Positions 24,478-43,865 of a stretch of 64,000 bases of DNA are shown here, in pieces; position 1 is the stretch's first letter; each line of letters opens with the position of its first letter. Source of the DNA: Pyramidobacter sp. YE332 (GTDB taxonomy: Bacteria; Synergistota; Synergistia; Synergistales; Dethiosulfovibrionaceae). The notes under the pieces were generated by a model. That model ran no database searches, had not been told where the DNA came from, and was given only the letters and a program-made list of their open reading frames with translations. The stretch is from positions 1,488,001 to 1,552,000 of the forward strand of contig NZ_CP133038.1 in assembly GCF_033060595.1 (NCBI RefSeq), written 5' to 3'. A program made the position numbers and the translations under genes.

Positions 24478-24675
24478 TCAGCGTTCCTCATACATCTTGG
24501 CATAGTAATTCCGATATTCGCCGCTGATGATGTGCCGCCACCATTCCTTGTGCGACAGATACCACCGTACGGTCCTGCGAATCCCCTCGTCGAACGTCGT
24601 TTCCGGCAGCCAGCCCAATTCCGCGTGGATTTTGGCCGGATCGATCGCGTAGCGCAGATCGTGCCCCGGGCGACA
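24478..24675 (-). pseudogene. 3' remnant of a second rmlB
   Basis: About 65 C-terminal codons of dTDP-glucose 4,6-dehydratase: [36 protein letters not shown] and [10 protein letters not shown]-stop. It closely parallels the C-terminus of the rmlB at 24933 but is GC-richer and diverged. It has no 5' part; at 24671 it runs into a wzt fragment on the other strand, so it is a recombination scar. Confidence 0.85.
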
Positions 24676-24783
24676 AAGTACTGTGGTTGCACGAGAGAGA
24701 GCAAATCGAATTCGGAGACCAGATAAACGACATTTGCCCCGACCACGGAAAGCTTCTGAACAGGATATGGAATTTTATACTTT
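24671..24783 (+). pseudogene. 3' remnant of a second wzt
   Basis: Reads [10 protein letters not shown], then [11 protein letters not shown], and ends WNFIL-stop. This matches the last about 35 residues of the wzt at 24300-24408 (NKVLWLHKGR, VEFGDRVDDIC). It is only a fragment, fused at its 5' end to the rmlB remnant. Confidence 0.75.
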
Positions 24784-24798
24784 AAAAAAACACTTTTC

Positions 24799-24857
24799 AT
24801 GATAAACATTGGAGTGAGGCATACGGCAAACGCCAGCCTCACTCCAATGTTTATCAT
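24799..24857. terminator. Perfect 22-bp inverted repeat
   Basis: Arms at 24799-24820 and 24836-24857 (core AACATTGGAGTGAGGC) pair perfectly around a 15-nt loop; AT-rich sequence flanks it. It sits downstream of the minus-strand rmlB and of the plus-strand wzt fragment, so it is probably a bidirectional terminator. Confidence 0.6.
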
Positions 24858-24932
24858 ACGCGCCTTTTTGTACATTGCTTCCTTGCGATGTTGTCCTGCC
24901 AGCCCCAGGAGCGTATATCAAATAACTCCATT

Positions 24933-25989
24933 TTATCTGCCCTGATACATTTTATTATAATATTTCATATAATCACCGGATGTAACATTCCTTACCCAGT
25001 CCGTATGGGTTAGATACCACCGGATGGTTTCGCGGATTCCTTGCTCAAAAGTATAAGCCGGGGACCACCCCAGCTGCGTAGTGATCTTGGTGTTGTCGAT
25101 GGCGTATCGCCGGTCGTGGCCGGGGCGGTCCTTCACGTGAGTTATCAATTCCTCGTTTTTCCCCAATTCCTTGAGAATCAAACGCACGATTTCAAGATTG
25201 GCCTTTTCGTTGTTACCGCCAATGTTGTACACCTGCCCCGCCGCCCCTTTTTCAAAACAGTGGCAATGGCGGCACAATGGTCGGACACATGGAGCCAGTC
25301 TCGGATTTGCATACCGTCACCGTAGACGGGCAGCGGCTTGTTCTGGAGAGCATTGTTGATCATTAGGGGGATCAGCTTTTCCGGGAACTGATATGGACCG
25401 TAGTTGTTGGAGCAGCGAGTAACATTTACCGGCAACCCATAAGTCTCGTGGTAGGCGCGTACGATCATATCCGCGCTTGCTTTGGACGCGGAATAGGGAC
25501 TATTCGGGGAGAGGGGCGTATCCTCAGTAAATATTCCAGTAGCCCCCAGAGCACCGTATACCTCATCGGTAGACACTTGCAAGTATCTCGTACCCCGGCG
25601 GTATTCCCTGGAATATTTGTCCCCAAGATGAAGTTTCCAACGCCTTTTTGCGACTTCCAACAGCGTCTGGGTACCCATAATATTGGTAGCAAAAAATACC
25701 TCGGGCGTTTCAATACTTCGGTCTACATGGCTCTCGGCGGCAAAATGAACAACCGTGTCAAAGTCATACTCATCGAACAGACGCTCTACCAACACTTTGT
25801 CGCAGATATTTCCCCTTACGAAGCGGTAGCGCGGGTCGGACTCCACCTTACTTAAATTTTCCAGATTACCTGCGTAAGTGAGGGCGTCCAAATTTACCAG
25901 AACCTCGATATCGGAAGAATAAGAAAGAATATGGCGTACAAAGTTGGACCCGATAAACCCTGCTCCTCCTGTAACAAGCACGGATTTCA

Positions 25990-25990
<1 letters not shown>
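24933..25990 (-). pseudogene. rmlB: dTDP-glucose 4,6-dehydratase with one frameshift
   Basis: The N-terminal 250 codons are normal: SDR NAD site VTGGAGFIGSNF, HFAAESHVDRSI, and the catalytic YSASKASAD. Near 25247 the frame changes: a G run is one base short, so VLKKG continues in another frame as [18 protein letters not shown], ending YNKMYQGR. With one extra G the protein would be about 352 residues, the normal length. It makes dTDP-4-keto-6-deoxyglucose for rhamnose or related sugars. The defect may be real, phase-variable or an assembly error. The start overlaps the rmlA stop by 1 nt. Confidence 0.88.
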
Positions 25991-26862
<872 letters not shown>

Positions 26863-26874
26863 CGTTCGCCGCCC

Positions 26875-28014
26875 CTATTCATTCAGGTGATTGATTCTGC
26901 CAAACTCATGAATCAGCCGTACCACCGTCGCTACGTCTTCCATGGAGAGGCTCTGATGAAGCGGCAGACAGAGCGTGTGCTCAGCCGCATAGTCGGCGTT
27001 GGGGAAATTGCCTTTAATTTCGTAGCGGCTGACACGATGAAGCGGGAAATAACGGAAGGTAGTATACACGCCGTGCTCTCTTAAGTACTTGGCGAGGTCG
27101 TCACGCTGCGCTTTTTTGACCTGAACATGATAGAAATAATAGGAGGAGGTACAATCAGCAGCCAGTGGGAGCGGCGTATCCAGCCAGCTTACATCGGCCA
27201 ACAGGCGGTCGTATTCCTCATGAATCGCCTTGCGCTTCGTGATGAAACCGGGAAGCTTCTTCAGCTGCTCCACAGCCATGGCCGCAGTGATGTCGTTCAT
27301 AATGGCGCGATGACCGAAGGAAGACACGTCATACTCCCACCATTTTTTGTCCACGCTGTTGGAATATCCACTTTTGCTCTCCAAGCCAAAATACAGCCAT
27401 TTTTCGGCTTTGACCTTAAGTTCCGGATCCCTAAAATACAACATAGAACCATCGCCACAGACCAGAATCTTCATCGCGTCGAAAGACCACATCCCCATAT
27501 CGCCGATGGTGCCGCAGGCTTGCCCTTTGTAAGTGGAAGAGACAGAGCAGGCGCTGTCCTCAATGACATAAAGATGATGCTTTTCGGCGAGCGCCATAAT
27601 CTCGTCCATCTCGCAGGGCACGCCGCCATAGTGAATGAGCATAATGGCCTTCGTATTGGGAGTGATCTTCGTCTCGATATCACGAGCACGCACATTGAGG
27701 GTGCGGGGGTCGACATCGCACAGCGCCAACTTCGCGCCAGAAGCGCACACGGCGTTGCCCGCGCCGACAAAGCTGATAGTGGGCATTATTACTTCGTCGC
27801 CCGGGCCGATGTCGAACATGTGCATAGAAGCAAATAACCCCTCGCTGCAGCAGTTGGTGGTAAACACATGCTTGCGGTCGACCTTAAGATGCGCCGCAAA
27901 GCCCAGCTCGAATTCATCGTTGAGCTTGCCCTTGCCCAGCCAGTTGGACTCAAAAACTCCTTTAATCCGCGCCAGTTCCTCAGCGCCAAGAGAAGGCTGA
28001 AACACATTGATCAT
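26875..28014 (-). CDS. DegT/DnrJ/EryC1/StrS-family sugar aminotransferase
   Basis: 379 residues. Fold type I PLP enzyme: TTNCCSEGLFASMHM, MPTISFVGAGNAV, IEDSACSVSST, and the region GMWSFDAMKILVCGDGSM with the PLP Lys. In many family members this is SFHxxK; here Asp replaces the His. It probably transaminates a dTDP-4-keto- or 3-keto-6-deoxysugar made by RmlAB, giving an amino sugar for the surface glycan. The exact product is not predictable. Confidence 0.88.
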   Translation of the reverse strand: MINVFQPSLGAEELARIKGVFESNWLGKGKLNDEFELGFAAHLKVDRKHVFTTNCCSEGLFASMHMFDIGPGDEVIMPTISFVGAGNAVCASGAKLALCDVDPRTLNVRARDIETKITPNTKAIMLIHYGGVPCEMDEIMALAEKHHLYVIEDSACSVSSTYKGQACGTIGDMGMWSFDAMKILVCGDGSMLYFRDPELKVKAEKWLYFGLESKSGYSNSVDKKWWEYDVSSFGHRAIMNDITAAMAVEQLKKLPGFITKRKAIHEEYDRLLADVSWLDTPLPLAADCTSSYYFYHVQVKKAQRDDLAKYLREHGVYTTFRYFPLHRVSRYEIKGNFPNADYAAEHTLCLPLHQSLSMEDVATVVRLIHEFGRINHLNE

Positions 28015-28736
28015 AATTCGATTCCACTCCCTTTGATTAAATCATATTCTTGAAGCAGGTTCTGACATTCTTCCCGAGAATTAAACATCATCACATCGAT
28101 AATAGACAGGTTAGGAACAAATTCATCATTGTATTGATGATAATGAATATCGCGCAGTTTAAGGAAGCTCAGCTCAATTCCCGACTGTTGAAACTTTTCG
28201 ACGTAAGGAACATAGAGCGGGATACCACTGATTGAGTTGTAGTATTCCGTTGCGCCTAGTTTTTTGCATATAGAGATCACCTTATGATGGGCTTTCAAAG
28301 AACAATCCTTCTCCATTTTAGAGGACATGATGAGTTCCGTGGTAATGCCCAAATATTCGCCAACTCTTCGAAAAGAGTAGAAAAGATACTCAGCTAAATT
28401 GGTTTCTGTTTGCGTAATGATATCTTCGAGTATCGGCATAACATTGGCATAATACGGCGCTTTCGAATACGACATTTCGATGGTGCGGAGCAATTTGGTC
28501 TGTAATACGCGTTGATTGTTGACCTCCACTTCGCGAATCAGTTTATTGGGGCTCGCGCCAGACAAAATCACGTTGATATTTCCGGACTTTTGTTGCATTA
28601 AAATTGCATTTCGATTGATCCTGCCCCCTTTAATGAAATTGACATCGTCGTAAACGACATATTTATCTACTGCGTTCATAAGCTGCCAGTAGCCCAGGTA
28701 GGGGAAAAAATAAGGCTGCATAATGCCAATTCTCAT
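28011..28736 (-). CDS. WbqC-like family protein
   Basis: 241 residues. The start RIGIMQPYFFPYLGYWQL, VVYDDVNFIKGGRINRNAIL and the later LGITTELIMSSKM fit the WbqC family. WbqC proteins occur in O-antigen loci and are presumed to modify or transfer groups on sugars; the biochemical reaction is unclear. The ATG overlaps neighbours by 4 nt at its 3' end. It is co-transcribed with the aminotransferase. Confidence 0.85.
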   Translation of the reverse strand: MRIGIMQPYFFPYLGYWQLMNAVDKYVVYDDVNFIKGGRINRNAILMQQKSGNINVILSGASPNKLIREVEVNNQRVLQTKLLRTIEMSYSKAPYYANVMPILEDIITQTETNLAEYLFYSFRRVGEYLGITTELIMSSKMEKDCSLKAHHKVISICKKLGATEYYNSISGIPLYVPYVEKFQQSGIELSFLKLRDIHYHQYNDEFVPNLSIIDVMMFNSREECQNLLQEYDLIKGSGIEL

Positions 28737-28758: not shown

Positions 28759-29310
28759 CTAAACTGTAAAGTTACAATCGCACGCCGCCACGTAAGGAGC
28801 GTTGGCGTCTTTTTCCGAAAGGATGGGGTTCATTCCTTCGGGCCACTCAATGCCAATGTCCGGGTCATCGTAACGAATGGAGCGCTCGTTCGCCTTGGAG
28901 TAAATATTGTCAACTTTGTACTGAACTTCGCAGTTTTCCTCCAAGGTGACAAAAACGTGTCCGAAGCCCTTTGGAATAAACAGCTGCTTTTTATTTTCCG
29001 CGGAAAGTTCGACTGCCATCCATTGCAGATAGGTTTCCGAACCTTTCCGGAGATCGACGGCATAGTCCATGATCCTCCCGCGGGTACAGCGAACCAGCTT
29101 GCTCTGCGCATAAGGATTATTTTGAAAATGAATGCCCCGAACCGTATGTTTCGGAACGGAAAGAGAATGGTTGTCTTGGATAAATTCCATGTCCAGCCCC
29201 AGACCCGTCATCTTCTTCCTGTTATAGGACTCAAAGAACCAGCCCCGGTTGTCGCCAAAGACACAGGGTTCAATAATTTTAACACATGGCAACGCGTTGC
29301 CGCTCGACAT
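28759..29310 (-). CDS. rmlC: dTDP-4-dehydrorhamnose 3,5-epimerase
   Basis: 183 residues, typical size. Cupin core with FIQDNHSLSVPKHTVRGIHF (catalytic His), QSKLVRCTRGRIMDYAVDLR, FIPKGFGHVFVTLEE, and the closing IRYDDPDIGIEWP. It epimerises C3 and C5 of dTDP-4-keto-6-deoxyglucose. RmlD is not seen in the window, so completion to dTDP-L-rhamnose depends on a gene elsewhere or on the epimerase-like gene at 30663. Confidence 0.95.
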   Translation of the reverse strand: MSSGNALPCVKIIEPCVFGDNRGWFFESYNRKKMTGLGLDMEFIQDNHSLSVPKHTVRGIHFQNNPYAQSKLVRCTRGRIMDYAVDLRKGSETYLQWMAVELSAENKKQLFIPKGFGHVFVTLEENCEVQYKVDNIYSKANERSIRYDDPDIGIEWPEGMNPILSEKDANAPYVAACDCNFTV

Positions 29311-29367: not shown

Positions 29368-30438
29368 TTAAGCCCCGATTATTTTAGAGGTCAACCGCTT
29401 TAGAGCCTTGTCGACATAGCCGCTCAAGACAAGACAGACCAAAGCGGTCAATGCGGAAAGCACAAGATAGAGGGTCAGTTCCACCCCAAAGGATACATTC
29501 AATTTCCAGACGCGAAGCGTCCGCGCCCAGACGTAATGGTTCAGATAAAGACACAGGCTATACTTTGAGATAAAAGAAATATATTTATCGTCCATTTTGC
29601 CTAACGCTCTGTTTGCATGACTCTTTCCACTGAAAGCGGCAATGATCCCCACGCAGACCAGCAAAACACACAGGAAATCAGTTTGAGACCGCGTGCCGTA
29701 AATGGAAAAGAGGATGACCCCAACAAGAGGTCCCGCTTCAAGTAACGTGAATAAGAGATTCCCTGCCTGCGACTGGCTGAACTGTCCGTTCAGCCAGTCG
29801 CACGCCCCATAGGCGGCGCACCCGGCACACAGTTCCGCAACCGCCCGCAGCAATCCAAGACAAACCATTTTATTCTCTGTAACGTGCATCGCAAAGTTAA
29901 CGTGACCGTAGGCGCGGGAAAACCACCCCAAAACAAAACAGGCCGCCAACGGCGCAATCACGTACACAAACATATTGGTATGCTTTCTAAGCAGCGGGTA
30001 TAAAGCCCCCATTGCAGGAAACAAAGCAAACAAGTACCATGAGGCGCCGACCAAGAGATTCGATTTCCCGCCAAAGCCAAAGGCGCGCAGAAACAGCAGG
30101 TCCCACAGACTGCCGCCAAGCGCGGTTACAGACCCCGAACGCAGAAAAATGAGCGCCACCGTTTCAAAAACAGCGGTAATGAAAAAGACTGTGTAAATGG
30201 GTTTTATCTTTCGCACCAAGAAGGCTATCGTTTCCTGCCCAAGAGCAATGCAAGGCTCCTTTTTCCGGCAGACAGAGCGAGCCATCAAAATGCCGGATAA
30301 AACGAAGAAAAACTCCACGCCCAACGAGTTGACGTGTAAGTTCACAGCGTTTTTATTTGTTGGGAGCAGCATGGAATGGCACAACACGATACATATGGCA
30401 AAGACCAGCCGCCAGACTTCAATCGACCGTATTTTCAT
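29368..30438 (-). CDS. Acyltransferase family 3 membrane protein
   Basis: 356 residues, about ten membrane helices. The N-terminus RSIEVWRLVFAICIVLCHSM contains the Acyltransferase_3 active His; FFFVLSGILMARSVCRKK is the second family motif. It likely O-acetylates a glycan residue from acyl-CoA. A group of transmembrane segments (LFALFPAMGALYPLLRK, FVYVIAPLAACFVLGWF) fits the family. It lies in the same operon as rmlC. Confidence 0.9.
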   Translation of the reverse strand: MKIRSIEVWRLVFAICIVLCHSMLLPTNKNAVNLHVNSLGVEFFFVLSGILMARSVCRKKEPCIALGQETIAFLVRKIKPIYTVFFITAVFETVALIFLRSGSVTALGGSLWDLLFLRAFGFGGKSNLLVGASWYLFALFPAMGALYPLLRKHTNMFVYVIAPLAACFVLGWFSRAYGHVNFAMHVTENKMVCLGLLRAVAELCAGCAAYGACDWLNGQFSQSQAGNLLFTLLEAGPLVGVILFSIYGTRSQTDFLCVLLVCVGIIAAFSGKSHANRALGKMDDKYISFISKYSLCLYLNHYVWARTLRVWKLNVSFGVELTLYLVLSALTALVCLVLSGYVDKALKRLTSKIIGA

Positions 30439-30662: not shown

Positions 30663-31603
30663 TCATTTATGACTATCAATATATTCATCTATCGTTTTAT
30701 CAATAGTATCCTCAATATCATACCTTGGAGTCCACCCCGTGTCCTGAAAAAAACTCGTCGCGTCCATTCCGGCATATGTGCGAATGTCATCCTTTCTTTG
30801 CAGGGAGATATCAATGCCCGAATACCCCCGCTTTTCCAATCTGCTTTTAGTAAGTTCGGCTATCTCTACTAAGGAATAGACTTTATTGTGCCAGCCCAGA
30901 TTATAGATTTTTTTCCATTGAGAATATTTAGTCTGAGAAAGAGCGACAAGCCCCGATGCGGCGTCTCTCACATCAAGCAGCGAAAAAAGCTGCTTACCAC
31001 CTATAAGTTCGATTTTTTTCTTTCGATTCCAGCACAAACAAACGTAGGAAGGAGTTTTTTATTTCCTGCAATGCTGTCGAGGCGTATATTCGTGGCCGCT
31101 GTCTCCGACTCTGTAGAAAAAACCGTTTCCAACAGAATCTCACTGGCGCACTTTGCCAAAGCATAACTTCCCAAAGGGCACAGTTTACTATTTTCATTAT
31201 GCAAGCCCGGCGAACTACCATATACACTTTGCGAGGAAATATTCATAATAGCAGGCACTCTTGCTTTTTTGACCGCAAGAAACACTTCTTTATGAAAATC
31301 CAATGTTTCGACTAATGCGCTTTGCTGTATTTCTGTGCGAGCAAATGCTAGATTTACAACAACTTTAATACGTTTCCACGGAATATTTGAAGTAAAATCC
31401 GCACTCCTGCCAACACACTGCAAACGCGCAACGTTTCTCTTTTCCAGCGCAGCCCATATCGTTTCACTGTTGCCCGAAACTGCCAGCACATTAAAATCCG
31501 TCTCCTCTAAAAGCTGCCGTATTAGCTCCAACCCGATATAACCACTTGCTCCGGTAATAAGTACGGTGTTTTTACACACTTCACCCACTCCAATGTTCGG
31601 CAT
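30663..31603 (-). pseudogene. NAD-dependent epimerase/dehydratase with A-run frameshift
   Basis: First part: VLITGASGYIGLELIRQLLE (Rossmann Gly motif), VVNLAFARTEI, and SLYALAK-type catalytic YALAKCASEIL. At 31012-31018 (seven A on the minus strand) the frame shifts, and the protein continues as KKKIELIGGKQLFSLLDVRDAASGL to a normal C-terminus (YDIEDTIDKTIDEYIDSHK). One more A would restore about 314 residues. It may supply the dTDP-4-keto sugar reductase step (RmlD-like) or another sugar modification. A homopolymer site makes slippage or sequencing error both possible. Confidence 0.82.
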
Positions 31604-31620
31604 GAACGACGCTACCTGTT

Positions 31621-32811
31621 TTATTTTTTCGAGAAGGAAGTTGCAATCGATGATTGATTTTCCTCTTGCAAACTGTCTTCTTTCTGCAAAGCGTATTTGA
31701 CAGCACTGACCAAATATTCTCTTAACACGCTTGCTCCTTTTCTAAGCGTGAGAATAATTCCATCTCGTTCTAGCACGCAGGATACTTTTTTTAGTATCGC
31801 GCGTATAAAAATAAAAATACACCGCATTTTGCCCGAAGAGTTTTTAAATATATAATATGAAGTATCAAAGTTAACCTTAGTCGGATGCCAATAAAACATC
31901 CTAAGACTCCCCAACCAATACATCTCTTTGCGTTTGCTTAAGTCCAACGATGTGTGAAGCTGTTTTTTCGCAAATCGTTCCGCTTCACATAGCCAGTCGA
32001 AATTGATTTGCAGCCAATTCGTCTTTTTAATGGCTGATGTAAAGCTTGTACTGGATTTCGTTAAAATCCGTCGTACCATAACGGGTTTTTTTTCGTGCCG
32101 AATCCTGCCGAGCGTAACCAGAAGCATATACACACGCCGATCCCCTAAAACTTGTATTTCCTCAAATTGTTGGAGCTCTTCTTCACTGTAATTGCGGAAA
32201 ACATTTCTGAAGAGCGTTGCTGATATATGAGATGGCAACAGCCATCTCTCTAAATGCTCTTTAGTATATTCATCATCCTGACAATAAGTGTCACTAAGCT
32301 TCCCCCAAGGGAATGCACAGGGAGCACCAAAATCATTGACACACACAAAGTCGCCCCCCGTAGCGATAAAATCGGGATGTTCTTCCAAGAAATTAACCTG
32401 TTTCTGCAACTTATCACTGAAAAGCCAATAATCGTCACCTTCCAGATTGGCGCGATATTTTCCTCGGCACGCCCGTCTCAAACAATTCGAATTTTTCTGC
32501 ATTCCAATATTTTTCTCATGCAGTATCAGACGGATTACCTCTGGATATTTTTTCTGATACTTCTGGACGATCTCTCGTGTATGATCTGTAGAGCAATCCT
32601 CTGCGATAACGAGTTCATAGGAGAAAGTCACCTCCTGCATCAATACACTTTCTATCGCACGGGCAATGTATTTTTCATGATTATATGTGGCCATACCAAT
32701 ACTAACTACAGGCTCGTCGGGCAAGCTCGCATCTATACTATTCACACAATGCCTCCTTACTGATAAGAATATTGTATCGATTTTCTCGTAACGTTGTAGA
32801 TTCTCTACCAA
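31621..32811 (-). CDS. Family 2 glycosyltransferase
   Basis: 396 residues. PVVSIGMATYNHEKYIARAIES opens the GT-A domain, with YELVIAEDCSTDHT, EGDDYWLFSDKLQKQVNFL (DxD region) and LGDRRVYMLLVTLG. The C-terminal third has a hydrophobic stretch and a basic segment. The first 25 residues precede the fold and the start may be internal (GTG before NSIDASLPDE). It is related to the transferase at 35354. It overlaps the upstream cupin gene by 7 nt. Confidence 0.87.
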   Translation of the reverse strand: MVENLQRYEKIDTIFLSVRRHCVNSIDASLPDEPVVSIGMATYNHEKYIARAIESVLMQEVTFSYELVIAEDCSTDHTREIVQKYQKKYPEVIRLILHEKNIGMQKNSNCLRRACRGKYRANLEGDDYWLFSDKLQKQVNFLEEHPDFIATGGDFVCVNDFGAPCAFPWGKLSDTYCQDDEYTKEHLERWLLPSHISATLFRNVFRNYSEEELQQFEEIQVLGDRRVYMLLVTLGRIRHEKKPVMVRRILTKSSTSFTSAIKKTNWLQINFDWLCEAERFAKKQLHTSLDLSKRKEMYWLGSLRMFYWHPTKVNFDTSYYIFKNSSGKMRCIFIFIRAILKKVSCVLERDGIILTLRKGASVLREYLVSAVKYALQKEDSLQEENQSSIATSFSKK

Positions 32812-33380
32812 TATCGACGCTCTATTTCTGAAAGACGAGGTGCTTTATATGTTTCCACGGAAGAGATAACTTTCGCTGGTATTATCCCGCTTCCTGCTAA
32901 AGTCTCGAAGACGTTTATTGTAATATTCTTTTTCTCTGAAATAATATTATCTGATAAAATATACAATCTTGTGTTATCTTCCAGAGATAAAAAGGCATGC
33001 GCCACCCCAATGGGAACATACAATAAGTTCCCATCACTACTCAACAAATCTCTTGAAGTATAATGCTGATACGTTTCCGTGGTATCTCTTACATCTAAAA
33101 CGATAACTCTGCACGAGCCATTTACGCATTTCATCAGGAGATTGTTTGTCCATGGAGCATTTTGGATAAAAAAGCCACGCAGAGTATTTTTAAACATAAA
33201 TTCTGTTTCATAGTGATATGAAAACACATTCTTTAACCCACTTACATTTCTAATATTTTCATGAGAATACAATACTTCAAAACCAAGATTATTGTTTATT
33301 TCTGGTCTTTCTGAAAAGAGATAAACTCCAGGAATCTTTGATTTACAACATTCCATCTTTTCACTCCATTGACTTAACAT
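32805..33380 (-). CDS. RmlC-like cupin protein, divergent
   Basis: 191 residues. The middle follows the RmlC plan: FMFKNTLRGFFIQNAPW, NNLLMKCVNGSCRVIVLDVRD, TYQHYTSRDLLS, LYVPIGVAHAFLSLEDNT. The first His of the RHxH-type motif is replaced (RGFFIQN). It may be a sugar 3,5- or 3-epimerase or 3,4-ketoisomerase on a dTDP sugar, or a degenerate paralogue. Paired with another cupin upstream. AT-rich codon use, as across this operon. Confidence 0.7.
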   Translation of the reverse strand: MLSQWSEKMECCKSKIPGVYLFSERPEINNNLGFEVLYSHENIRNVSGLKNVFSYHYETEFMFKNTLRGFFIQNAPWTNNLLMKCVNGSCRVIVLDVRDTTETYQHYTSRDLLSSDGNLLYVPIGVAHAFLSLEDNTRLYILSDNIISEKKNITINVFETLAGSGIIPAKVISSVETYKAPRLSEIERRYW

Positions 33381-33399
33381 ATAATAGCACTACAACTGC

Positions 33400-34023
33400 T
33401 TAATTTCTCTCCAGCACCTCACTCAAACGACCAGTTAGTTCATCTACCCTATTATCTTGCGCTCGCAAATCAAGAAACTCCTGAACCGTTTTCATTTCCC
33501 TACTGAAAGCATCGATAACAGAAAATTCAATGCCATCGAATAGAGTGCCCAGTTGTTCATCCAAAGGATTAATCATCTGCACCTGCGCAAAATCAACAGG
33601 CCTTGAAGTTTGAATTAGCAATATAGAATTGGGCTCAGCTTGTTCCACACCCCAAACAACGCCTTCGGGAATCAGCCCCCCCTGATATAAATTAGAGTCC
33701 ATCGACCAAGAAGAACGTAATTTTAACCTTTCTGTTTTTAAAAAAGTTTCACTATTGTTTCTGAGATCAGCCAAGAATAAGTTCATACATCCCTGAAAGC
33801 ACCTTAAAAGAATTTTTTGCTGTGGAATAGAATACAAACCTTCGACGACACAGGGGGAAGACGTGCATCTTTTAGTGTAAATCATTTCAAATATATCTTC
33901 CTCTCCGGCCTGGAACAGATCTAACCAATTATACGTGATGACTCTGATCCCCTTATGATCTACGGAAAGATTTAGTTTTTGATACTTTACTCCTGCTATT
34001 TTTTTCGATTTTATAATAAGCAC
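33400..34023 (-). CDS. RmlC-like cupin protein, more divergent
   Basis: 207 residues. Cupin-like elements are VEGLYSIPQQKILLRCFQGCMNLFLADLRNNSETF and GGLIPEGVVWGVEQAEPNS, parallel to the neighbour at 32805. Several catalytic His of RmlC are missing. The C-terminal 50 residues are helical and may pack against a partner. It is probably a structural or binding paralogue; enzymatic activity is doubtful. Confidence 0.55.
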   Translation of the reverse strand: MLIIKSKKIAGVKYQKLNLSVDHKGIRVITYNWLDLFQAGEEDIFEMIYTKRCTSSPCVVEGLYSIPQQKILLRCFQGCMNLFLADLRNNSETFLKTERLKLRSSWSMDSNLYQGGLIPEGVVWGVEQAEPNSILLIQTSRPVDFAQVQMINPLDEQLGTLFDGIEFSVIDAFSREMKTVQEFLDLRAQDNRVDELTGRLSEVLERN

Positions 34024-34050
34024 GGGGTTCTCTCCTCACCAAGAATAAGC

Positions 34051-35340
34051 TCAGTTATTCAGTGAATTCACAACGCGTTCCGTATCGAATTTCAAGAACA
34101 GCATATCATTGCCGCGGTCGTCGCGGACGCAGACAAGCTCCTGAATCTTCTTAATAACGTTCTTCAATTCATCGCAGGTGTCTGCGGCGATATAGGCGCG
34201 GAAGACTGACTGCGCCATGGAATTGTTTTCCACAACTTCAGAGCCGACAGGCAGCAAAAACTCCGCATAACAGACTCCCGGGATTTTCCGTACTTTCTCC
34301 AGGCCGCTGAGACTCCCGATGACGCCGGCGTGGGCCGTCATATTGAACGCGCAGCAGAAACAATCGGGGTTCGGATTGTCCCTGCCGAGATCGCCATGAT
34401 CCGACGTGCCTGTCAGCGCATATTCAACGGCCATTTTCATATAGTTGATACCGTTAACCGCATCCAGGTAATAGTAATCGCACAGCGCGGGAATGCGATA
34501 TCCACACTCAAAAATGTAGATCCCCTTCTCGGTGGCAATGCCTTGAAAAAACACAGTCCCGGCGTAGGCGCCGGCGCTCTTCAGCATCTTTTTGATCGCC
34601 GGATCAACCTGTTTTTTATATTGCTCATAAAACTGCGACGGGGCAATACTGGCGTCAAACTGCGCCGTTACTCCAGTGTGATCCAGCGAAGGGTACCGAT
34701 CGCGCAGTATGGACAGGCTCACTTCCCCGCCCTTGATAGTATAAACCGAGGTGATTTCCGTGCCGGTCACATAATCTTCCACGATCACAGAACCGCTTGG
34801 GGAATTCTCCCGGGCGCGACGAACCGCCGGTTCCAATTCGCCCTCTCCGCGGCAGATGGTAACGCCGCGGGCGGCGAAACCGTCTACAGGCTTTACAATG
34901 ACGGGGTAATTCACACGTTTAGCCCACTCTTTGTCGCCGTCCGCGCCGACGGCATATTCCCGCGGTACCGGAACGCCATGTTTTACGCACAGGTCTTTAA
35001 AGGTCTTTTTATTCTGAAAGGCATCCCACTGCTTTTTCGTGAAGTAACAAGGCAACCCCAGTTTTTCGCATACTGCCTGAAGGGTTATTAAATTCCCCTC
35101 GCTGACGCCGCAAAAAATGCCGTCGATGCTCTTTTCCCGGGCAAAATCACATAGAGCGCCAACATCCCGCGTACTGACCGCAGCACATTCGTCGCAAATC
35201 TGCTTTGCCTCCGACCGCTCAGGCGCCAGGTTGTCGGTGACGATCACATACGCGCCTTCCTGCCGCGCATAGCGAACCATGCTAACAGATGCAACGGACG
35301 TACCTAAAAGCAACAGCCGTTTTCCATCAAACAGTCCCAT
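34051..35340 (-). CDS. ATP-grasp family enzyme
   Basis: 429 residues from the ATG at 35340 (GGGTGAGGGCAG upstream). A pre-ATP-grasp Rossmann start (KRLLLLGTSVASVSMVRYAR), then ATP-grasp: YPVIVKPVDGFAARGVTIC, VIVEDYVTGTEI and a metal-site region FFQGIATEKGIYIFECGYRI. Carbamoyl-phosphate/biotin-type ligases of this class form amide or peptide bonds. In a polysaccharide cluster it might attach an amino acid to a sugar or make a precursor. Substrate is unknown. Confidence 0.8.
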   Translation of the reverse strand: MGLFDGKRLLLLGTSVASVSMVRYARQEGAYVIVTDNLAPERSEAKQICDECAAVSTRDVGALCDFAREKSIDGIFCGVSEGNLITLQAVCEKLGLPCYFTKKQWDAFQNKKTFKDLCVKHGVPVPREYAVGADGDKEWAKRVNYPVIVKPVDGFAARGVTICRGEGELEPAVRRARENSPSGSVIVEDYVTGTEITSVYTIKGGEVSLSILRDRYPSLDHTGVTAQFDASIAPSQFYEQYKKQVDPAIKKMLKSAGAYAGTVFFQGIATEKGIYIFECGYRIPALCDYYYLDAVNGINYMKMAVEYALTGTSDHGDLGRDNPNPDCFCCAFNMTAHAGVIGSLSGLEKVRKIPGVCYAEFLLPVGSEVVENNSMAQSVFRAYIAADTCDELKNVIKKIQELVCVRDDRGNDMLFLKFDTERVVNSLNN

Positions 35341-35353
35341 TCTGCCCTCACCC

Positions 35354-36316
35354 TTAGTCAAGATAAAAGAGCCAATAGTATATTTTTTTTACACAGATCA
35401 TGGGGATGCAGAGGAAAAATTCCCATTTTCTGTTCTCCAGTTCGAGAATCTCCCATGCCAGGCAACGCCAGCCTTTAACTCCCGTCTTCAAGTAATGTAA
35501 AACCGCAGAAACAAACAGCTCTTTCCTGTGGGCGCGAAAACCGGCGTCGACCTTTAATACTGAAGCGGCGTAGTTTTCCAGCGTACGAGTATAGGCAAGT
35601 TCCCGCCTCATGTTTTCCAGCGAAGAATTGTACATTGCCGCCGTTAAATTTCCGGATTTTTTATATCGGCGGTAGCAACTCATTTTTTCTTTAAAATGAT
35701 AAAAATCGCCCTTGGCGGCGCAAATCAATATCACCGTTCGATCGCTGATCTGCCGGTGGGCTTTATAGCAGATAGAGTAGTCCTGGGATCTGTCGGCGTA
35801 AATATTACGCTTTACAATAGTCGCCGCCTGCCCCGGCAGCATGACGCCCTGAAAATCCTTCAGGGTGTACCGGGATTTGCCGCTGATCCAACGTAAGCGC
35901 TGCCGTCTTAACGGCGCCCCGTTTTGATCGACGGCAACGTAGTCATGAGAGCAGCCGATGAAAGAAGGGTTCTTTTCAAGAAAATCAACCTGCGTCTGCA
36001 GCTTATCCTTTGACGTCCAATAGTCGTCGCCTTCACAAACGGCGATATAGGCTCCCCCGGCGCGCATGGAGAGTTCATACGCGTTTCTTGTCGCGCCCAG
36101 ATTATGTTCCCTTAGAAAAAGTCGAATTTTCTCGGGATATTTTCTTTGCAGTGACTTCAATATTTCGGGCGTGCCGTCGATAGACGCGTCATCTCCAACG
36201 AGGATCTCATAAGGAAAATTTGTGCGCTGCATTAGGATACTGGAAACCGCCTGCTCAATAAACTGCTCTTGATTATATGACATAACAATCACGCTTACTA
36301 ATACGCTATCAGACAT
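35354..36316 (-). CDS. Family 2 glycosyltransferase
   Basis: 320 residues. SVIVMSYNQEQFIEQAVSSIL, YEILVGDDASIDGTPEILK, AVCEGDDYWTSKDKLQTQVDFL (DxD) form the GT-A core; a C-terminal helical region carries WRCLAWEILELENRKWEFFLC. The domain layout mirrors the transferase at 31621, so the two may use similar donors. It overlaps nothing and ends 13 nt before the ATP-grasp start. Confidence 0.9.
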   Translation of the reverse strand: MSDSVLVSVIVMSYNQEQFIEQAVSSILMQRTNFPYEILVGDDASIDGTPEILKSLQRKYPEKIRLFLREHNLGATRNAYELSMRAGGAYIAVCEGDDYWTSKDKLQTQVDFLEKNPSFIGCSHDYVAVDQNGAPLRRQRLRWISGKSRYTLKDFQGVMLPGQAATIVKRNIYADRSQDYSICYKAHRQISDRTVILICAAKGDFYHFKEKMSCYRRYKKSGNLTAAMYNSSLENMRRELAYTRTLENYAASVLKVDAGFRAHRKELFVSAVLHYLKTGVKGWRCLAWEILELENRKWEFFLCIPMICVKKIYYWLFYLD

Positions 36317-37502: not shown

Positions 37503-38624
37503 TTATGACCTTTTGCCTCTCCGAAGAGAAAATATTTTTTCAGCGGTCTGCATTGCGCTGTGTATAACTTCGTCCATATTATAATATCTGTATTCTGCAA
37601 GTCGCCCGCCGAATATGACGTTTTTCTCCCTTTCCGCAAGCTGGCGATAGCGCTTATAAAGTTCGTTGTTTGAGGTATCGTTCACAGGGTAGAGTGGCTC
37701 TCTGCCCGCTTGCCATTCTCCGGGGTATTCTCTGGTGATTACTGTCGTCGGTTGTTTGCCGAATGCAAAATGCTTATGCTCTACAATCCTTGTATAGGGC
37801 GTTTCAGCGTCGGTGTAGTTTACAACGGCATTTCCCTGGAAGTTCTCAGTGTTGATTTCCTCTGTAACAAAGGTTAATGTTCTGTATTCCAGCGCGCCGT
37901 ATCTGTAATCAAAGTATTCGTCGATCATACCTGTGTAGACAACGCTATCCGCCAGCGATACGAGTTTTTTTGTGGAGAAAAAATCGGTTGAAAGCTGAAG
38001 TTCGCACCCTTTCAGCAGTTTTTCAAATATCCCATTATAGCCGCCCGCAGGTATGCCTTGATAAACGTCGTTGAAATAGTTGTTGTCATAGTTAAAGCGC
38101 AGTGGGAGTCTGTTTATTATTGCAGGAGGCAGCTCAGAGCAACGGCGTCCCCACTGTTTTTCCGTGTAGTTCTTTATTAGCTTCTCGTATATGTCCGGGC
38201 CGACGAGCGAAAGCGCCTTTTCTTCAAGATTCGAAGGCTTTTTTGTTCTGTATGGACGCGTCTGTTCAGCGATCTTTTCTTTTGCTTCTTTTGGAGTAAT
38301 AACCCCCCACAACTTATTGTACGTATTCATATTGAACGGCAGATTGTAGATTTCATTGCCGTTGCGTGCCAGCGGCGAATTAACGAAATTGTTAAACTTA
38401 GCGAAGCGCATAATAAACTGCCAGATCTTTTCTCTGTCTGTATGAAATATGTGCGGTCCGTATTTATGCACCGTTATCGCCGACTGCTTTTCACAGAAAG
38501 CAGCGCCGCCGATATGATTCTTCTTATCTATTACAAGACATTTTTTGCCGGCCGACGCTGCATAATGGGCGAAAACTGCCCCATAAAAACCAGCGCCGAC
38601 AATGAGAAAGTCGTAGACTGCCAT
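37503..38624 (-). CDS. glf: UDP-galactopyranose mutase
   Basis: 373 residues, normal length. FAD site YDFLIVGAGFYGAVFAHYA; GGAAFCEKQSAITVHKYGPHIFHT, YTEKQWGRRCSELPP and IPAGGYNGIFEKLL are Glf hallmarks. It interconverts UDP-Galp and UDP-Galf using reduced FAD. As the first gene of the operon it implies galactofuranose in the glycan; UDP-Gal could come from galE at 42861. Confidence 0.96.
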   Translation of the reverse strand: MAVYDFLIVGAGFYGAVFAHYAASAGKKCLVIDKKNHIGGAAFCEKQSAITVHKYGPHIFHTDREKIWQFIMRFAKFNNFVNSPLARNGNEIYNLPFNMNTYNKLWGVITPKEAKEKIAEQTRPYRTKKPSNLEEKALSLVGPDIYEKLIKNYTEKQWGRRCSELPPAIINRLPLRFNYDNNYFNDVYQGIPAGGYNGIFEKLLKGCELQLSTDFFSTKKLVSLADSVVYTGMIDEYFDYRYGALEYRTLTFVTEEINTENFQGNAVVNYTDAETPYTRIVEHKHFAFGKQPTTVITREYPGEWQAGREPLYPVNDTSNNELYKRYRQLAEREKNVIFGGRLAEYRYYNMDEVIHSAMQTAEKIFSLRRGKRS

Positions 38625-41334: not shown

Positions 41335-42678
41335 CTACGAGCTCTGGCGCTGCTCCAATGCCAAGCCAATCAGCCGATCCGTTTGGTCTGCCATGAACAG
41401 CGGGATATTCAGCATATCATCGTCCAGTTTCAGATTATCCAGAGAGAACCGCACACGGAGCTTCACCTGATCCGGGAACAGTTCCTTGAATTTCTTGAGG
41501 CTCTTGCCGGCTGTGTTGGCCTCGGATTTGACCTCTACAGGGAAAACGTCGTTCTCTCTTTGAATGAGGAAATCCACCTCATAAGGAGGATTGTTCTGGC
41601 TCCAATACCGGGGAACAACTTCAAACTGGGTGACCAAGGTCTGAAGCACAAAGTTCTCGGTCAGTGCGCCTTTGAACTCGGTGAACAGGCGATTGCCTTC
41701 GCCAAAGGCCGTAGGAGCCAGCTGCGCAAGACGGCGAAGCAGTCCCACATCGACCAAATAAATCTTAAAGGCGGAGAGGTCGTCGTAAGCAGCCACAGGC
41801 AGGCCAGGGGCGGAACTGCGATAGACCTTGTGCACCAGACGGGCATCTACCAGCCATTGCAGGGCATCCTCGTATTCACGGGCTCTTGCGCCCTCTTTGA
41901 CGACCTTGTAGATGAATTTCTTGTTTTCCCTCGCCAGCTGGGACGGTATAGACTTCCAGATCATAGAGATCTTCGGAAACTCGTTGATATTAGGATGTTT
42001 GGCAAAGTCACGCTCGTAGGCGCCGATGATCCCGGACAGGGCTTCCTGCATAGCGGATACATCTCGCGCTTCTGTCCACATCAGAACGGATTCCGGCATG
42101 CCGCCGGTCACGTAGTACATTTTGAGTTTTTCATAAAGAGGATTAAAGAAGGCGTCGGGGATTGGCTCAATAATGTTCACACTGTCCAGATACCTTGCTA
42201 AATTCTCGTCGTCGTTGGCGAGCAGGAACTCTGCAAAGGTCATGGGATCAATCTGCATAAAATTGACCTTGCCCACGGGGAACGATGAAGGTTTGGCCAA
42301 GGGGATCCCCAGCAGAGAACCGGCACAGGCGACGTGGTATCGCGGTGCATTTTCGCAGAAATATTTCATGGAATTGATGACCTTGGGGCAGTCTTGTACC
42401 TCGTCAAAAATGACGAGGGTCTTTTCAGGCGTGATCTTCTGACCGCTGGCCAGCATCAAATTTTGCAAGATACGATCGACGTCCTTTGTCGTTTCAAAGA
42501 ACTCTTTGTATTCTTCGTTCTCGTCGAAATTGAAATAAGCAACGTTTTCATAGTATCGTGTGCCAAATTCTTTGAGAATCCATGTCTTGCCTACTTGGCG
42601 AACACCTTTTAAGATTAAAGGTTTACGGTAAGGTGAATGCTTCCATTCCAGCAATTGTTTTAAAATCACTCGTTCCAT
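41335..42678 (-). CDS. ATP-binding DUF4143 (AAA_14) protein
   Basis: 447 residues from the ATG at 42678 (GAGGTG 8 nt upstream). Walker A GVRQVGKT, Walker B LVIFDEVQDCPK, sensor ACAGSLLGIPLA, and a DUF4143 C-domain with YLVDVGLLRRLAQL, LTENFVLQTLV and YEVDFLIQRENDVFPVEVK (a PD-(D/E)XK-like acidic/EVK pattern). Intact, unlike the paralogue at 17456. These ATPases are widespread accessory genes of unproven function, possibly with nuclease or regulatory activity. Confidence 0.9.
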   Translation of the reverse strand: MERVILKQLLEWKHSPYRKPLILKGVRQVGKTWILKEFGTRYYENVAYFNFDENEEYKEFFETTKDVDRILQNLMLASGQKITPEKTLVIFDEVQDCPKVINSMKYFCENAPRYHVACAGSLLGIPLAKPSSFPVGKVNFMQIDPMTFAEFLLANDDENLARYLDSVNIIEPIPDAFFNPLYEKLKMYYVTGGMPESVLMWTEARDVSAMQEALSGIIGAYERDFAKHPNINEFPKISMIWKSIPSQLARENKKFIYKVVKEGARAREYEDALQWLVDARLVHKVYRSSAPGLPVAAYDDLSAFKIYLVDVGLLRRLAQLAPTAFGEGNRLFTEFKGALTENFVLQTLVTQFEVVPRYWSQNNPPYEVDFLIQRENDVFPVEVKSEANTAGKSLKKFKELFPDQVKLRVRFSLDNLKLDDDMLNIPLFMADQTDRLIGLALEQRQSS

Positions 42679-42787
42679 ATGCAGCACACCTCACATTATT
42701 ATTGATGTTTACGTGTATTATTATCACATAATTATTGTATTCTGCTCAACAAAAAAAAGCAACGGCCGTCGTGTAATTATTTCAGTG

Positions 42788-42793: not shown

Positions 42794-42860
42794 TTTATGG
42801 CAGCGGCCGAAATTTACGTGATGTGTGGCGGCTGGCAATCTTTTATTGGAGGGAACGACC

Positions 42861-43865
42861 ATGAACGTTTTGCTTACCGGCGGGGCCGGTTTTATCGGGT
42901 CGCATACGGCGGTCGAACTGATCGCGGCGGGGCACGGCGTGGTGATCGCCGACGATCTGAGCAACAGCTCGGCTTCGGTGATCGAGCGGCTGGAACGGAT
43001 CACGGGCGTGCGCGTGCCGTTTTACCAAATCGACGTGGCCGACACGGCGGCGCTGGAACGTCTCTTTGCGGAGCACGATCTCGACGCGGTGATCCACTTC
43101 GCGGGGCTGAAGGCGGTGGGCGAATCGGTGGCCAAGCCGCTGCTTTACTACCGCAACAATCTGGACACGACGCTGGCGCTGCTGGAAGTGATGGCGGCGC
43201 ACGGCTGCAGGCGCTTCATCTTCAGCTCGTCGGCCACGGTGTACGGGATGACGAACTCCGTTCCGTTCACGGAGGAGATGCCGACCGGCGGTTGCACGAA
43301 TCCCTACGGCTGGACGAAGTTCATGATCGAGCAGATCCTGCGCGACGCGGCCGCCGCGGACGCGGAGGTGTCGGCGGTGCTGCTGCGTTACTTCAACCCG
43401 ATCGGCGCGCACGAGTCGGGGCTGATCGGCGAGCAGCCGCAGGGGATCCCCAACAATCTGATGCCGTATCTGTGCCAGGTGGCGGCGGGCAAGCTGCCGC
43501 AGCTGCGCGTTTTCGGCGACGACTACCCCACGCCCGACGGCACGGGGGTGCGCGACTACATCCACGTGGTCGATCTCGCCAAAGGGCATGCGGCGGCGCT
43601 GGCTTACGCCGCCTCGCACCAAGGGGCCGAGGTATTCAATCTCGGCACGGGGCGCGGCAGCAGCGTGATGGATCTGATCCGTTCGTTCGAACGGGTCAAC
43701 GGCATTAAAATCCCTTACGCGATCGCGCCGCGCCGCGCCGGCGACATCGCCGCGTGCTGGGCCGACGCCTCGAAAGCCGAGCGCCTGCTGGGCTGGAAGG
43801 CGCGGAAATCGCTCGACGACATGTGCCGCGATTCCTGGAACTGGACGAAGAAGTCGCTGCTGTAG
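42861..43865 (+). CDS. galE: UDP-glucose 4-epimerase, the only complete copy
   Basis: 334 residues, normal length. NAD site LLTGGAGFIGSHT, DAVIHFAGLKAVGES, catalytic SSSATVYG and YGWTK (Tyr-x3-Lys), [36 protein letters not shown]. It interconverts UDP-Glc and UDP-Gal; UDP-Gal could feed glf. GGAGGG precedes the ATG. It sits among four broken copies, so it may be the surviving member of a duplicated set. Confidence 0.96.
   Translation: MNVLLTGGAGFIGSHTAVELIAAGHGVVIADDLSNSSASVIERLERITGVRVPFYQIDVADTAALERLFAEHDLDAVIHFAGLKAVGESVAKPLLYYRNNLDTTLALLEVMAAHGCRRFIFSSSATVYGMTNSVPFTEEMPTGGCTNPYGWTKFMIEQILRDAAAADAEVSAVLLRYFNPIGAHESGLIGEQPQGIPNNLMPYLCQVAAGKLPQLRVFGDDYPTPDGTGVRDYIHVVDLAKGHAAALAYAASHQGAEVFNLGTGRGSSVMDLIRSFERVNGIKIPYAIAPRRAGDIAACWADASKAERLLGWKARKSLDDMCRDSWNWTKKSLL

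Follow-up and report, generated by a model that had tools for sequence, protein, structure and literature searches.

A surface-glycan cluster of Pyramidobacter sp. YE332 (Synergistota; Synergistales; Dethiosulfovibrionaceae) carries an ATP-grasp gene followed by two RmlC-like cupin genes that have lost the catalytic residues of their family, and in our sample of genomes the ligase and such cupins are distributed independently of each other, as well as differing in base composition. The reading that best accounts for these observations, to which we give a probability of roughly 0.6, is that of a mosaic glycan cluster in which an amide-forming ligase stands beside non-catalytic cupins that are not obligatory to it.

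Gene Content of the Cluster

The window, by which we mean the whole stretch of 64,000 nt that was analyzed, is the forward strand of contig NZ_CP133038.1 (GCF_033060595.1) from 1,488,001 to 1,552,000, and all coordinates below are window positions. The ATP-grasp gene (ATPG) and the two intact PF00908 cupin genes (CUP1 and CUP2) occupy 32805-35361 on the minus strand, with intergenic gaps of just 27 bp (ATPG/CUP1) and 19 bp (CUP1/CUP2), and are flanked on both sides by genes of the GT2 family (Table 1), in line with the sequence-only reading, which had placed an ATP-grasp enzyme and the cupins between glycosyltransferases. A canonical RmlC sits 3.5 kb beyond the cupins.

Table 1. Features of the glycan cluster, in window positions
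Feature	Position	Strand	Remarks
ATP-grasp ligase (ATPG)	34051..35361	-	TTG-start ORF; PF01071/PF13535
CUP1, degenerate RmlC-like cupin	33400..34023	-	GTG start, GGTGAGGAG upstream; PF00908 4.8e-9
CUP2, degenerate RmlC-like cupin	32805..33380	-	PF00908 1.8e-19
GT_b, GT2 glycosyltransferase, 5' neighbour of ATPG	35354..36316	-	PF00535
GT_c, GT2 glycosyltransferase, low GC as in cupins	31621..32811	-	GT2 family by Pfam scan
SDR (NAD-dependent epimerase/dehydratase)	30663..31603	-	frame-broken at ~31016-31020
Acyltransferase 3 family protein	29368..30438	-	PF01757 4.1e-20
Canonical RmlC (reference for catalytic residues)	28759..29310	-	TIGR01221 212 bits, above cut-off
WbqC-like protein	28011..28736	-	PF08889 4.4e-66
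DegT/WecE-like aminotransferase	26875..28014	-	PRK11706 248 bits, below cut-off 375
RmlA, glucose-1-phosphate thymidylyltransferase	25990..26862	-	TIGR01207 473 bits, above cut-off
RmlB, dTDP-glucose 4,6-dehydratase	24936..26116	-	two frames, break near 25217-25268
UDP-galactopyranose mutase (UGM), upstream part of same glycan cluster	37503..38624	-	model match

The ATG at 35340, which lies behind a purine-rich stretch, is a likelier start for ATPG than the TTG of the ORF, and CUP2 has a likely start in its second ATG, at 33356 and preceded by GGAG. Because both cupin genes are intact ORFs (207 codons in CUP1 and 191 in CUP2) with plausible ribosome-binding sites and gaps of 19-27 bp, co-transcription and a real role for the cupins are both possible.

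The ATP-Grasp Ligase

ATPG has an ATP-grasp domain with its conserved residues, and several ATP-grasp models, including PF01071 and PF13535, exceed their Pfam cut-offs, while the C-terminal match to the L-amino-acid-ligase domain LAL_C2 is weak (1.1e-5, 26 bits, under the cut-off of 29.4) and the Pfam matches include no TupA-named model. Its relatives in the PDB are 4dim and 3vot (an L-amino acid ligase), and K157, E195 and R289, which we take to be core ATP-grasp residues, are invariant in five of five aligned relatives. An ortholog that is 60.6% identical is present in genome G382 (locus L106; class of a contig titled Clostridia), where it adjoins a homologous GT2 gene, repeating the GT_b-ATPG adjacency of the window (GT_b is 41.7% identical to its counterpart), and lies one gene away from a homologous SDR, with no cupin. 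The window SDR is likewise homologous to those beside or near ATPG in two further loci (L023 and L108). Ligase matches were also obtained in 16 plasmid records, each at <60% identity, and in 3 phage records; a scan of viral contigs with the ligase alignment returned no relative.

The family of ATPG, its neighbors and a genetic precedent in Clostridioides difficile (see below) point to the decoration of a sugar with an amide or amino acid as its likeliest role. ATPG would then be an ATP-dependent carboxylate-amine ligase, most likely forming an amide bond that decorates a sugar. Its substrates would probably be an amino acid, or another small acid, and a dTDP-activated amino-deoxyhexose that accepts it on its amino group and that RmlA, RmlB and the DegT aminotransferase would provide. 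Alternatively, the acceptor could be the same sugar once it has been transferred by the neighboring GT2 enzymes.

Loss of Catalytic Residues in the Cupins

Both cupins belong to the PF00908 family, with scores of 36.6 bits for CUP1 (cut-off 27) and 70.5 bits for CUP2 (above the gathering score), but fall far below the NCBIfam rmlC cut-off of 155.75 bits (16.6 and 44, respectively, compared with 212 for the RmlC of the window). We compared their residues with 59 other RmlC-family proteins, a set that is not a random sample and consists of the hits with returned loci, the window RmlC, two proteins of L112 and a truncated chimera in L043. Residues in one-letter code are numbered as in the window RmlC (H61, Y131 and K71 are His63, Tyr133 and Lys73 of S. 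enterica RmlC). The absence of the catalytic His from both tandem cupins, noted in the sequence-only reading, is confirmed: H61 is conserved in 59/59 proteins and replaced by Y (CUP1) or F (CUP2). The catalytic Tyr (Y131) is kept in 58 of the 59 (F in one) and is I in both cupins, and K71, again present in all 59, is L in CUP2 and I in CUP1, although the latter assignment depends on the alignment (a Lys lies one column off). Asp170 of the His-Asp dyad is D in 58/59 (one gap) and S and T in the cupins, whose C-terminal alignment is poor. R58 is E in CUP1 and kept in CUP2, which also retains H118 of the RmlC site; the losses common to both cupins are Q45 to Y and Y131 to I. Structure predictions made without an alignment gave a mean pLDDT of 32.1 and 32.7.

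Judged by these residues, CUP1 and CUP2 are unable to run the known RmlC epimerase mechanism. With none of His, Tyr and Lys retained, the suggestion that the cupins act as an isomerase is unlikely to hold, and we reject them as active epimerases on the residues. We likewise reject a single active site complemented by the two proteins, since the same His and Tyr are missing from both and a CUP1/CUP2 heterodimer would not restore the site. A caution on rejecting epimerase activity from residues comes from C. jejuni DdahB and MlghB, for which the available text of PMC7949155 reports that part of the C3 activity on heptose survives mutation of His67, and that mutation of Lys74 abolishes DdahB activity. 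CUP1 and CUP2 are, most probably, RmlC-fold binders of sugar nucleotides that are either dead or repurposed and were added by mosaic transfer.

Distribution of the Ligase and the Cupins

The genomes searched were drawn as even samples from the class and the phylum of genome G149, from the order of G382 and from the phylum of G150; these samples partly overlap (G149 recurs), such that the counts are not additive. A ligase profile built from two sequences matches, at E<=1e-20 and with distant members counted, 56 of the 391 genomes sampled in the class of G149 (titled Clostridia), and we read the ligase neighborhoods of 20 of these 56, mostly the best-scoring; of 23 other genomes of the order Synergistales, 4 were read as putative orthologs. 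The resulting 24 neighborhoods do not include three loci with more distant ATP-grasp matches (L040, L041 and L042), two with RmlC matches (L038 and L039), or L037, which has both but is partly hidden by overlapping ORFs.

The sequence-only reading had itself made its trio depend on the three genes traveling together in other genomes, and in our sample they do not: a His-less cupin occurs in 0/24 ATPG neighborhoods, several of which lie on short contigs. The partial exception is L122, in which a PF00908 cupin (L122:2983-3453) lies 6 kb from the ligase, keeping the His but with Tyr replaced by I and Lys by D; this neighborhood counts against our preferred reading. The L122 protein lies outside the set of 59, in which His and Lys are canonical in every cupin relative. 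No second degenerate cupin pair was found in the genomes sampled, a result behind which one search lacked a known positive and is uninformative alone. Four same-genus genomes contain no ATPG (E<=1e-10), no CUP1 and no CUP2, and the ATPG-cupin stretch is therefore accessory. Among plasmid records there was no match to CUP1, and 31 matched CUP2, of which the best 20 are <=33.1% identical and carry an RmlC or rfbC name wherever the feature is named; viral contigs scanned with each cupin yielded no relative.

What does recur near the ligase is a DegT aminotransferase, found no more than 10 kb away in 17/24 neighborhoods. This agrees with an amino-deoxy sugar being decorated by an amide, although genes of the DegT type are frequent in glycan clusters. 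RmlA or RmlB is present in 9/24, and a further ATP-grasp ORF (best match X_ATPG1) in 11/24. Thus, of the earlier proposal that the trio makes an amide-linked or amino-acid-decorated sugar, the part concerning the ATP-grasp enzyme is retained as its likeliest role, whereas the trio as a unit is not, and on present evidence is a chance or lineage-specific juxtaposition.

Base Composition and Frame Breaks

The GC/GC3 contents are 53/61% for ATPG, 39/37% for CUP1, 34/30% for CUP2 and 40.5/41% for GT_c. We note that GC is also low in WbqC (40%) and UGM (45%), which counts against our preferred reading. RmlB is split over two frames, with a partial second copy of its C-terminus, and the genome, which is 97.5% complete, shows no other RmlB copy at E<=1e-20. 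As both RmlB and the neighboring SDR are frame-broken, this may be a decaying locus or a misassembled one, and since the broken RmlB is the only one at this threshold, the sugar-nucleotide supply may be dead. Both breaks fall at short homopolymer runs, and could be assembly errors.

Comparison with Known Systems

By family and gene content, one of the closest likenesses is to the flagellin glycan locus of C. difficile type B (CDR20291_0242-0247; rml genes at 0223-0226), which according to the available text of PMC5207246 and PMC5207245 comprises GT2 genes, a PF13535 ATP-grasp gene, an FdtB-like DegT-type sugar aminotransferase and RmlA/B/C; the window shares with it an ATP-grasp, a DegT, Rml and GT2 genes in one cluster, albeit with a frame-broken RmlB. 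As far as PMC5207246 could be consulted, the ATP-grasp mutant lacks the peptidyl-amido sugar, the precise step is left open, the rml genes are thought to make rhamnose, a FemAB gene stands beside the ATP-grasp gene, as in the ATPG-related loci L108 and L124, and no degenerate cupins are named. A scan of window proteins that took in the cluster genes, though not every window ORF, found neither FemAB nor the ornithine cyclodeaminase of C. difficile. The window DegT (WecE/PRK11706-like) is unlike the DesI-like type of the one neighbor tested in a related locus, an observation that also counts against our preferred reading. The earlier statement that no such pathway has been described is thus too strong for the ATP-grasp part, whereas for the cupins it agrees with our search of the openly licensed PMC literature, in which we found no paper describing degenerate RmlC proteins paired next to an ATP-grasp gene.

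In the C. jejuni HS:2 capsule, the available text of PMC11800379 describes Cj1438, in which a C-terminal ATP-grasp amidoligase tied to a GT2 amidates a capsule sugar; it differs from ATPG in being a TupA-like ATP-grasp fused to the glycosyltransferase and in acting on the GlcA carboxylate to give a GlcA amide. The bacterial L-amino-acid ligases (PDB 3vot, BL00235; Pfam LAL_C2) share with ATPG the ATP-grasp core and the weak C-terminal match, but overall similarity is low and the context of ATPG is a glycan cluster. As in the cupins, PF00908 spans most of RmlC (dTDP-4-dehydrorhamnose 3,5-epimerase) and of DdahB/MlghB (PMC7949155, available text), from which CUP1 and CUP2 differ in the replaced catalytic His, Tyr and Lys.

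Competing Explanations

The broken RmlB and SDR, the partial second RmlB C-terminus, the lack of another RmlB and the residues lost from the cupins could all be explained by a decaying island, in which RmlB and SDR are pseudogenes and the cupins are former epimerases drifting without function. We consider this possible but doubtful: beyond the prospect of assembly errors at the homopolymer runs, the cupins and all three GT2 genes have uninterrupted frames, and in AT-rich DNA two frames as long as 191 and 207 codons would hardly stay open under drift alone. It is also conceivable, if unlikely, that the cupins have changed function and now serve as another kind of sugar enzyme or binder, one that works with GT_c and not with the ligase, as their common low GC, the shared Q45 and Y131 replacements and a tree that groups CUP1 with CUP2 (support 91/99) would suggest. 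However, both members of the grouping sit on very long branches (6.65 and 3.35) and long-branch attraction may have brought them together, there are no homologs with known function, and other genes of the cluster are low in GC as well.

That ligase and cupins form one functional unit, with the cupins as scaffold or isomerase for a decorated sugar, would be in keeping with their tight spacing on the same strand, the intact cupin frames, the R58 and H118 kept in CUP2 and the partly altered cupin of L122. We nevertheless regard it as improbable, considering the absence of His-less cupins from all 24 neighborhoods and of a second degenerate pair from the sampled genomes, and the strong difference in GC3 between the ligase (61%) and the cupins (30-37%). 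The mosaic reading is the one we prefer: the cluster would have been assembled horizontally, and the cupins, most likely non-catalytic sugar-nucleotide-binding relics or helpers, would have arrived with the low-GC GT_c segment.

Implications

A more speculative scenario, in which we place little credence, is that the common ancestor of CUP1 and CUP2 lost epimerase catalysis and that the two were then recruited as a sugar-nucleotide-binding helper pair that presents an amino-deoxy sugar to ATPG or GT_c. If true, glycan decoration would here involve a cupin partner without catalysis, something for which we found no description in the openly licensed PMC literature. The cupins themselves pose a small, clean puzzle, that of epimerase-family proteins without epimerase residues. 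The ATPG family, in turn, occurs widely in glycan clusters across the class of G149 (titled Clostridia), and is a candidate for producing amide-decorated surface sugars other than the few already characterized.

Gene Order, Base Composition and Intactness of the Cluster

The sequence-only reading had placed an ATP-grasp gene (ATPG) beside two degenerate RmlC-like cupins (CUP1 and CUP2) among glycosyltransferases, and this arrangement is confirmed, with all genes of the cluster on the minus strand. Neither ATPG (E ≤ 1e-10) nor CUP1 nor CUP2 was found in any of the 4 same-genus genomes searched.

Features of the glycan cluster in transcription order, its flanking genes, and selected genes near ATPG relatives in other genomes
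Feature	Position	Strand	Remark
UDP-galactopyranose mutase	38624-37503	minus	
GT2 glycosyltransferase, first	37639-36446	minus	
GT_b, second GT2	36316-35354	minus	
ATPG, ATP-grasp gene	35361-34051	minus	
CUP1	34023-33400	minus	PF00908
CUP2	33380-32805	minus	PF00908
GT_c, GT2	32811-31621	minus	
SDR	31603-30663	minus	frame-broken
Acyltransferase 3	30438-29368	minus	
Canonical RmlC	29310-28759	minus	
WbqC	28736-28011	minus	
DegT aminotransferase	28014-26875	minus	
RmlA	26862-25990	minus	
RmlB	within 24481-26116	minus	frame-broken, last in order
RmlB C-terminus, partial second copy	24696-24481	minus	
HTH_38 protein	within 19414-20760		flanking; presumably transposase-like
DUF4143 AAA ATPase	41335-42687		flanking
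SDR (a different one)	42825-43865	plus	flanking
Schlafen/AlbA_2 protein	43968-45614		flanking
Transporter-type neighbors	L107:11231, L112:10721, L117:7254, L119:7887, L121:7962, L122:10854, L125:8387		
~315-aa family	L043:8371-9324, L111:10475-11419		counterparts in L116, L121, L023
PF14397 ATP-grasp genes	L109:2995, L116:7910, L118:10571, L118:11605		

The closest locus in another genome is L106 (genome G382), where a GT_b counterpart (41.7% identity) is followed directly by the ATPG counterpart (60.6%), then by one gene and an SDR. Between ATPG and the SDR, the window thus carries CUP1, CUP2 and GT_c, whereas L106 carries a single fusion of a Glyco_transf_56-like part to a PglD/hexapeptide-like part. 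Third-position GC is 61% in ATPG and 55% in GT_b, as against 37% in CUP1, 30% in CUP2, 41% in GT_c and 39-42% in the SDR. Because both gene order and base composition differ in this way, the locus reads as a mosaic, and we infer that the cupin-GT_c stretch would be of other origin than the ligase; low GC is, however, not confined to that stretch, as WbqC has a GC content of 40% in a window of 55% overall.

Two genes of the cluster are frame-broken. RmlB is split over two frames, with the break near 25217-25268 in a region that has short homopolymer runs (five A, four G), and the whole genome, when searched with an RmlB query from Clostridia (E ≤ 1e-20), returned no RmlB beyond the pieces in the table. 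The SDR likewise lies in two frames, with its break at a run of seven A (~31016-31020), which could be an assembly error, a pseudogene or a slippage site. Taken together, the two breaks are either assembly indels or the mark of a broken pathway.

Catalytic Residues and Kinship of the Cupins

The catalytic residues described for S. enterica RmlC (His63, Lys73, Tyr133 and Asp170; PMC7949155) align with H61, K71, Y131 and D168 of the window's canonical RmlC, at an offset of two throughout. When CUP1 and CUP2 were aligned with 59 other RmlC-family proteins, the His and Lys were present in 59/59 of the latter and the Tyr in 58/59, while the His/Lys/Tyr columns hold Y, I and I in CUP1 (a Lys is found one column off) and F, L and I in CUP2. 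The alignment at the Asp170 column is unreliable for both cupins. R58 and H118 (window RmlC numbering) are retained in CUP2 and are E and W in CUP1. With the His, Lys and Tyr replaced, neither protein can run the known RmlC mechanism. Pairwise identities are low (24.6% between CUP1 and CUP2, and 27.7% and 23.5% to the window RmlC for CUP2 and CUP1, respectively). The two group together in the tree (support 91/99), but since both branches are extremely long, loss of catalysis in a common ancestor is possible rather than established.

Searches in other genomes sampled these only partially, in overlapping sets. Among 149 genomes of the window's order, the sole CUP1 match was its own genome (E ≤ 1e-4). 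Weak matches in 5 of 391 Clostridia genomes (E ≤ 1e-3) were all canonical RmlC, a search of 153 genomes in the phylum of the Paludibacteraceae, run without a positive control, gave none, and in one of six further genomes there were two matches of marginal strength (best E 0.0067), both within larger open frames. CUP2 matched 17 of the 149 genomes at E ≤ 1e-6, its own included, and 23/299, 9/147 and 12/158 genomes in three further searches at E ≤ 1e-10. Every cupin relative for which a locus was returned was put into the alignment, and all keep the His and Lys, including one in L150 in which Tyr is F and R58 is Y. No second degenerate pair was found in any of these partial, overlapping samples, and a literature search, mostly of bibliographic entries, found no description of one.

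The ATPG Family and Its Neighborhoods

ATPG resembles PurD-like and L-amino-acid-ligase ATP-grasp proteins, and holds the residues that are invariant among its relatives. A two-sequence profile (ATPG and a Synergistaceae relative) matched 56 of the 391 Clostridia genomes at E ≤ 1e-20; 20 of these, with 4 from the window's order, provided 24 neighborhoods, each covering genes within 10 kb of the ligase where the contig permits (several contigs are short). Neighbors were counted by best-matching query per ORF (E ≤ 1e-6), and the counts are descriptive only. On this basis, a DegT aminotransferase occurs in 17/24 neighborhoods, a further ATP-grasp ORF (best match X_ATPG1) in 11, weakly in two of them (L025 and L114), a glycosyltransferase that resembles a window GT likewise in 11, and an SDR counterpart in 3 (L023, L106 and L108). 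Nine neighborhoods have RmlA or RmlB, with the match in L113 being a weak one (9e-7).

The reading of the three genes as one set is not supported by these neighborhoods, CUP1 or CUP2 being the best match in 0/24. The RmlC-family HMM found ORFs in three loci. L112 has two, and the His, Lys and Tyr are present in both. The ORF in L107, which covers the region of L043, is a truncated chimera with its His retained (L043:12786-13274), in which an RmlC-like N-terminal part precedes an unrelated LicD-like C-terminal end; a weak match in L024 is a LicD protein that matches this non-RmlC end. The third, L122:2983-3453, is a PF00908 protein (1.7e-17; FdtA and Polysacc_synt_C also match) 6 kb from its ATPG, with H, D and I at the His/Lys/Tyr columns. 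Thus, one neighborhood of 24 holds a partly altered PF00908 cupin, but it is of another type and keeps the His; it is possibly intermediate between RmlC and non-epimerase cupins. The L122 cluster also holds two DegT genes, RmlB and the ATPG relative.

Other neighbors recur. A transporter or substrate-binding gene (SSF, DctM, CitMHS or NMT1-like) lies beside the ATP-grasp gene in at least 7/24 loci, a count from Pfam runs on the neighbors of some loci; an acid or amine substrate of the ligase may be imported. A ~315-aa family, DegT/PLP-like by eye, lies beside or near ATP-grasp genes, with no Pfam hit for the L111 copy and no NCBIfam hit for the L043 copy. PF14397 "sugar-transfer associated" ATP-grasp genes share clusters with the ATPG family, and several ATP-grasp types are therefore stacked.

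Probable Role of the Ligase and Known Systems

Given its family and neighbors, ATPG probably acts on an amino sugar by forming an amide. In L106, the DegT close to the ligase is best matched by a DesI-type model (dTDP-4-dehydro-6-deoxyglucose aminotransferase; 254 bits, below cut-off) and that of the window by a PRK11706/WecE-type model (248 bits, below cut-off), and because these best models differ, the sugar probably differs between clusters.

Comparable systems have been described. In the C. difficile type B flagellin locus, FemAB-like, PF13535 ATP-grasp, ornithine cyclodeaminase-like and FdtB-like aminotransferase genes lie beside GT2 and GT3, and mutants in the GT3, ATP-grasp or cyclodeaminase gene retain only the core trisaccharide and lose the terminal peptidyl-amido sugar, with the exact gene roles left open by the authors (PMC5207246); the glycan bears Fuc3N capped with taurine, alanine and glycine (PMC5207245). 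FemAB proteins likewise adjoin ATPG relatives in L108 and L124. Cj1438 of C. jejuni HS:2 has a C-terminal ATP-grasp domain that converts glucuronic acid to its amide (PMC11800379). We liken ATPG to these ATP-grasp proteins in kind. By these cases, glycan clusters in which an ATP-grasp enzyme takes part in amide decoration are of a known kind.

The suggestion of an amide-linked or amino-acid-decorated sugar is partly supported for the ligase, through its family, its neighbors and these known systems, and is not supported for the trio. The oddity of the cupins is real, though isolated, and the ligase is of a kind already known, in a lineage that is new for it.
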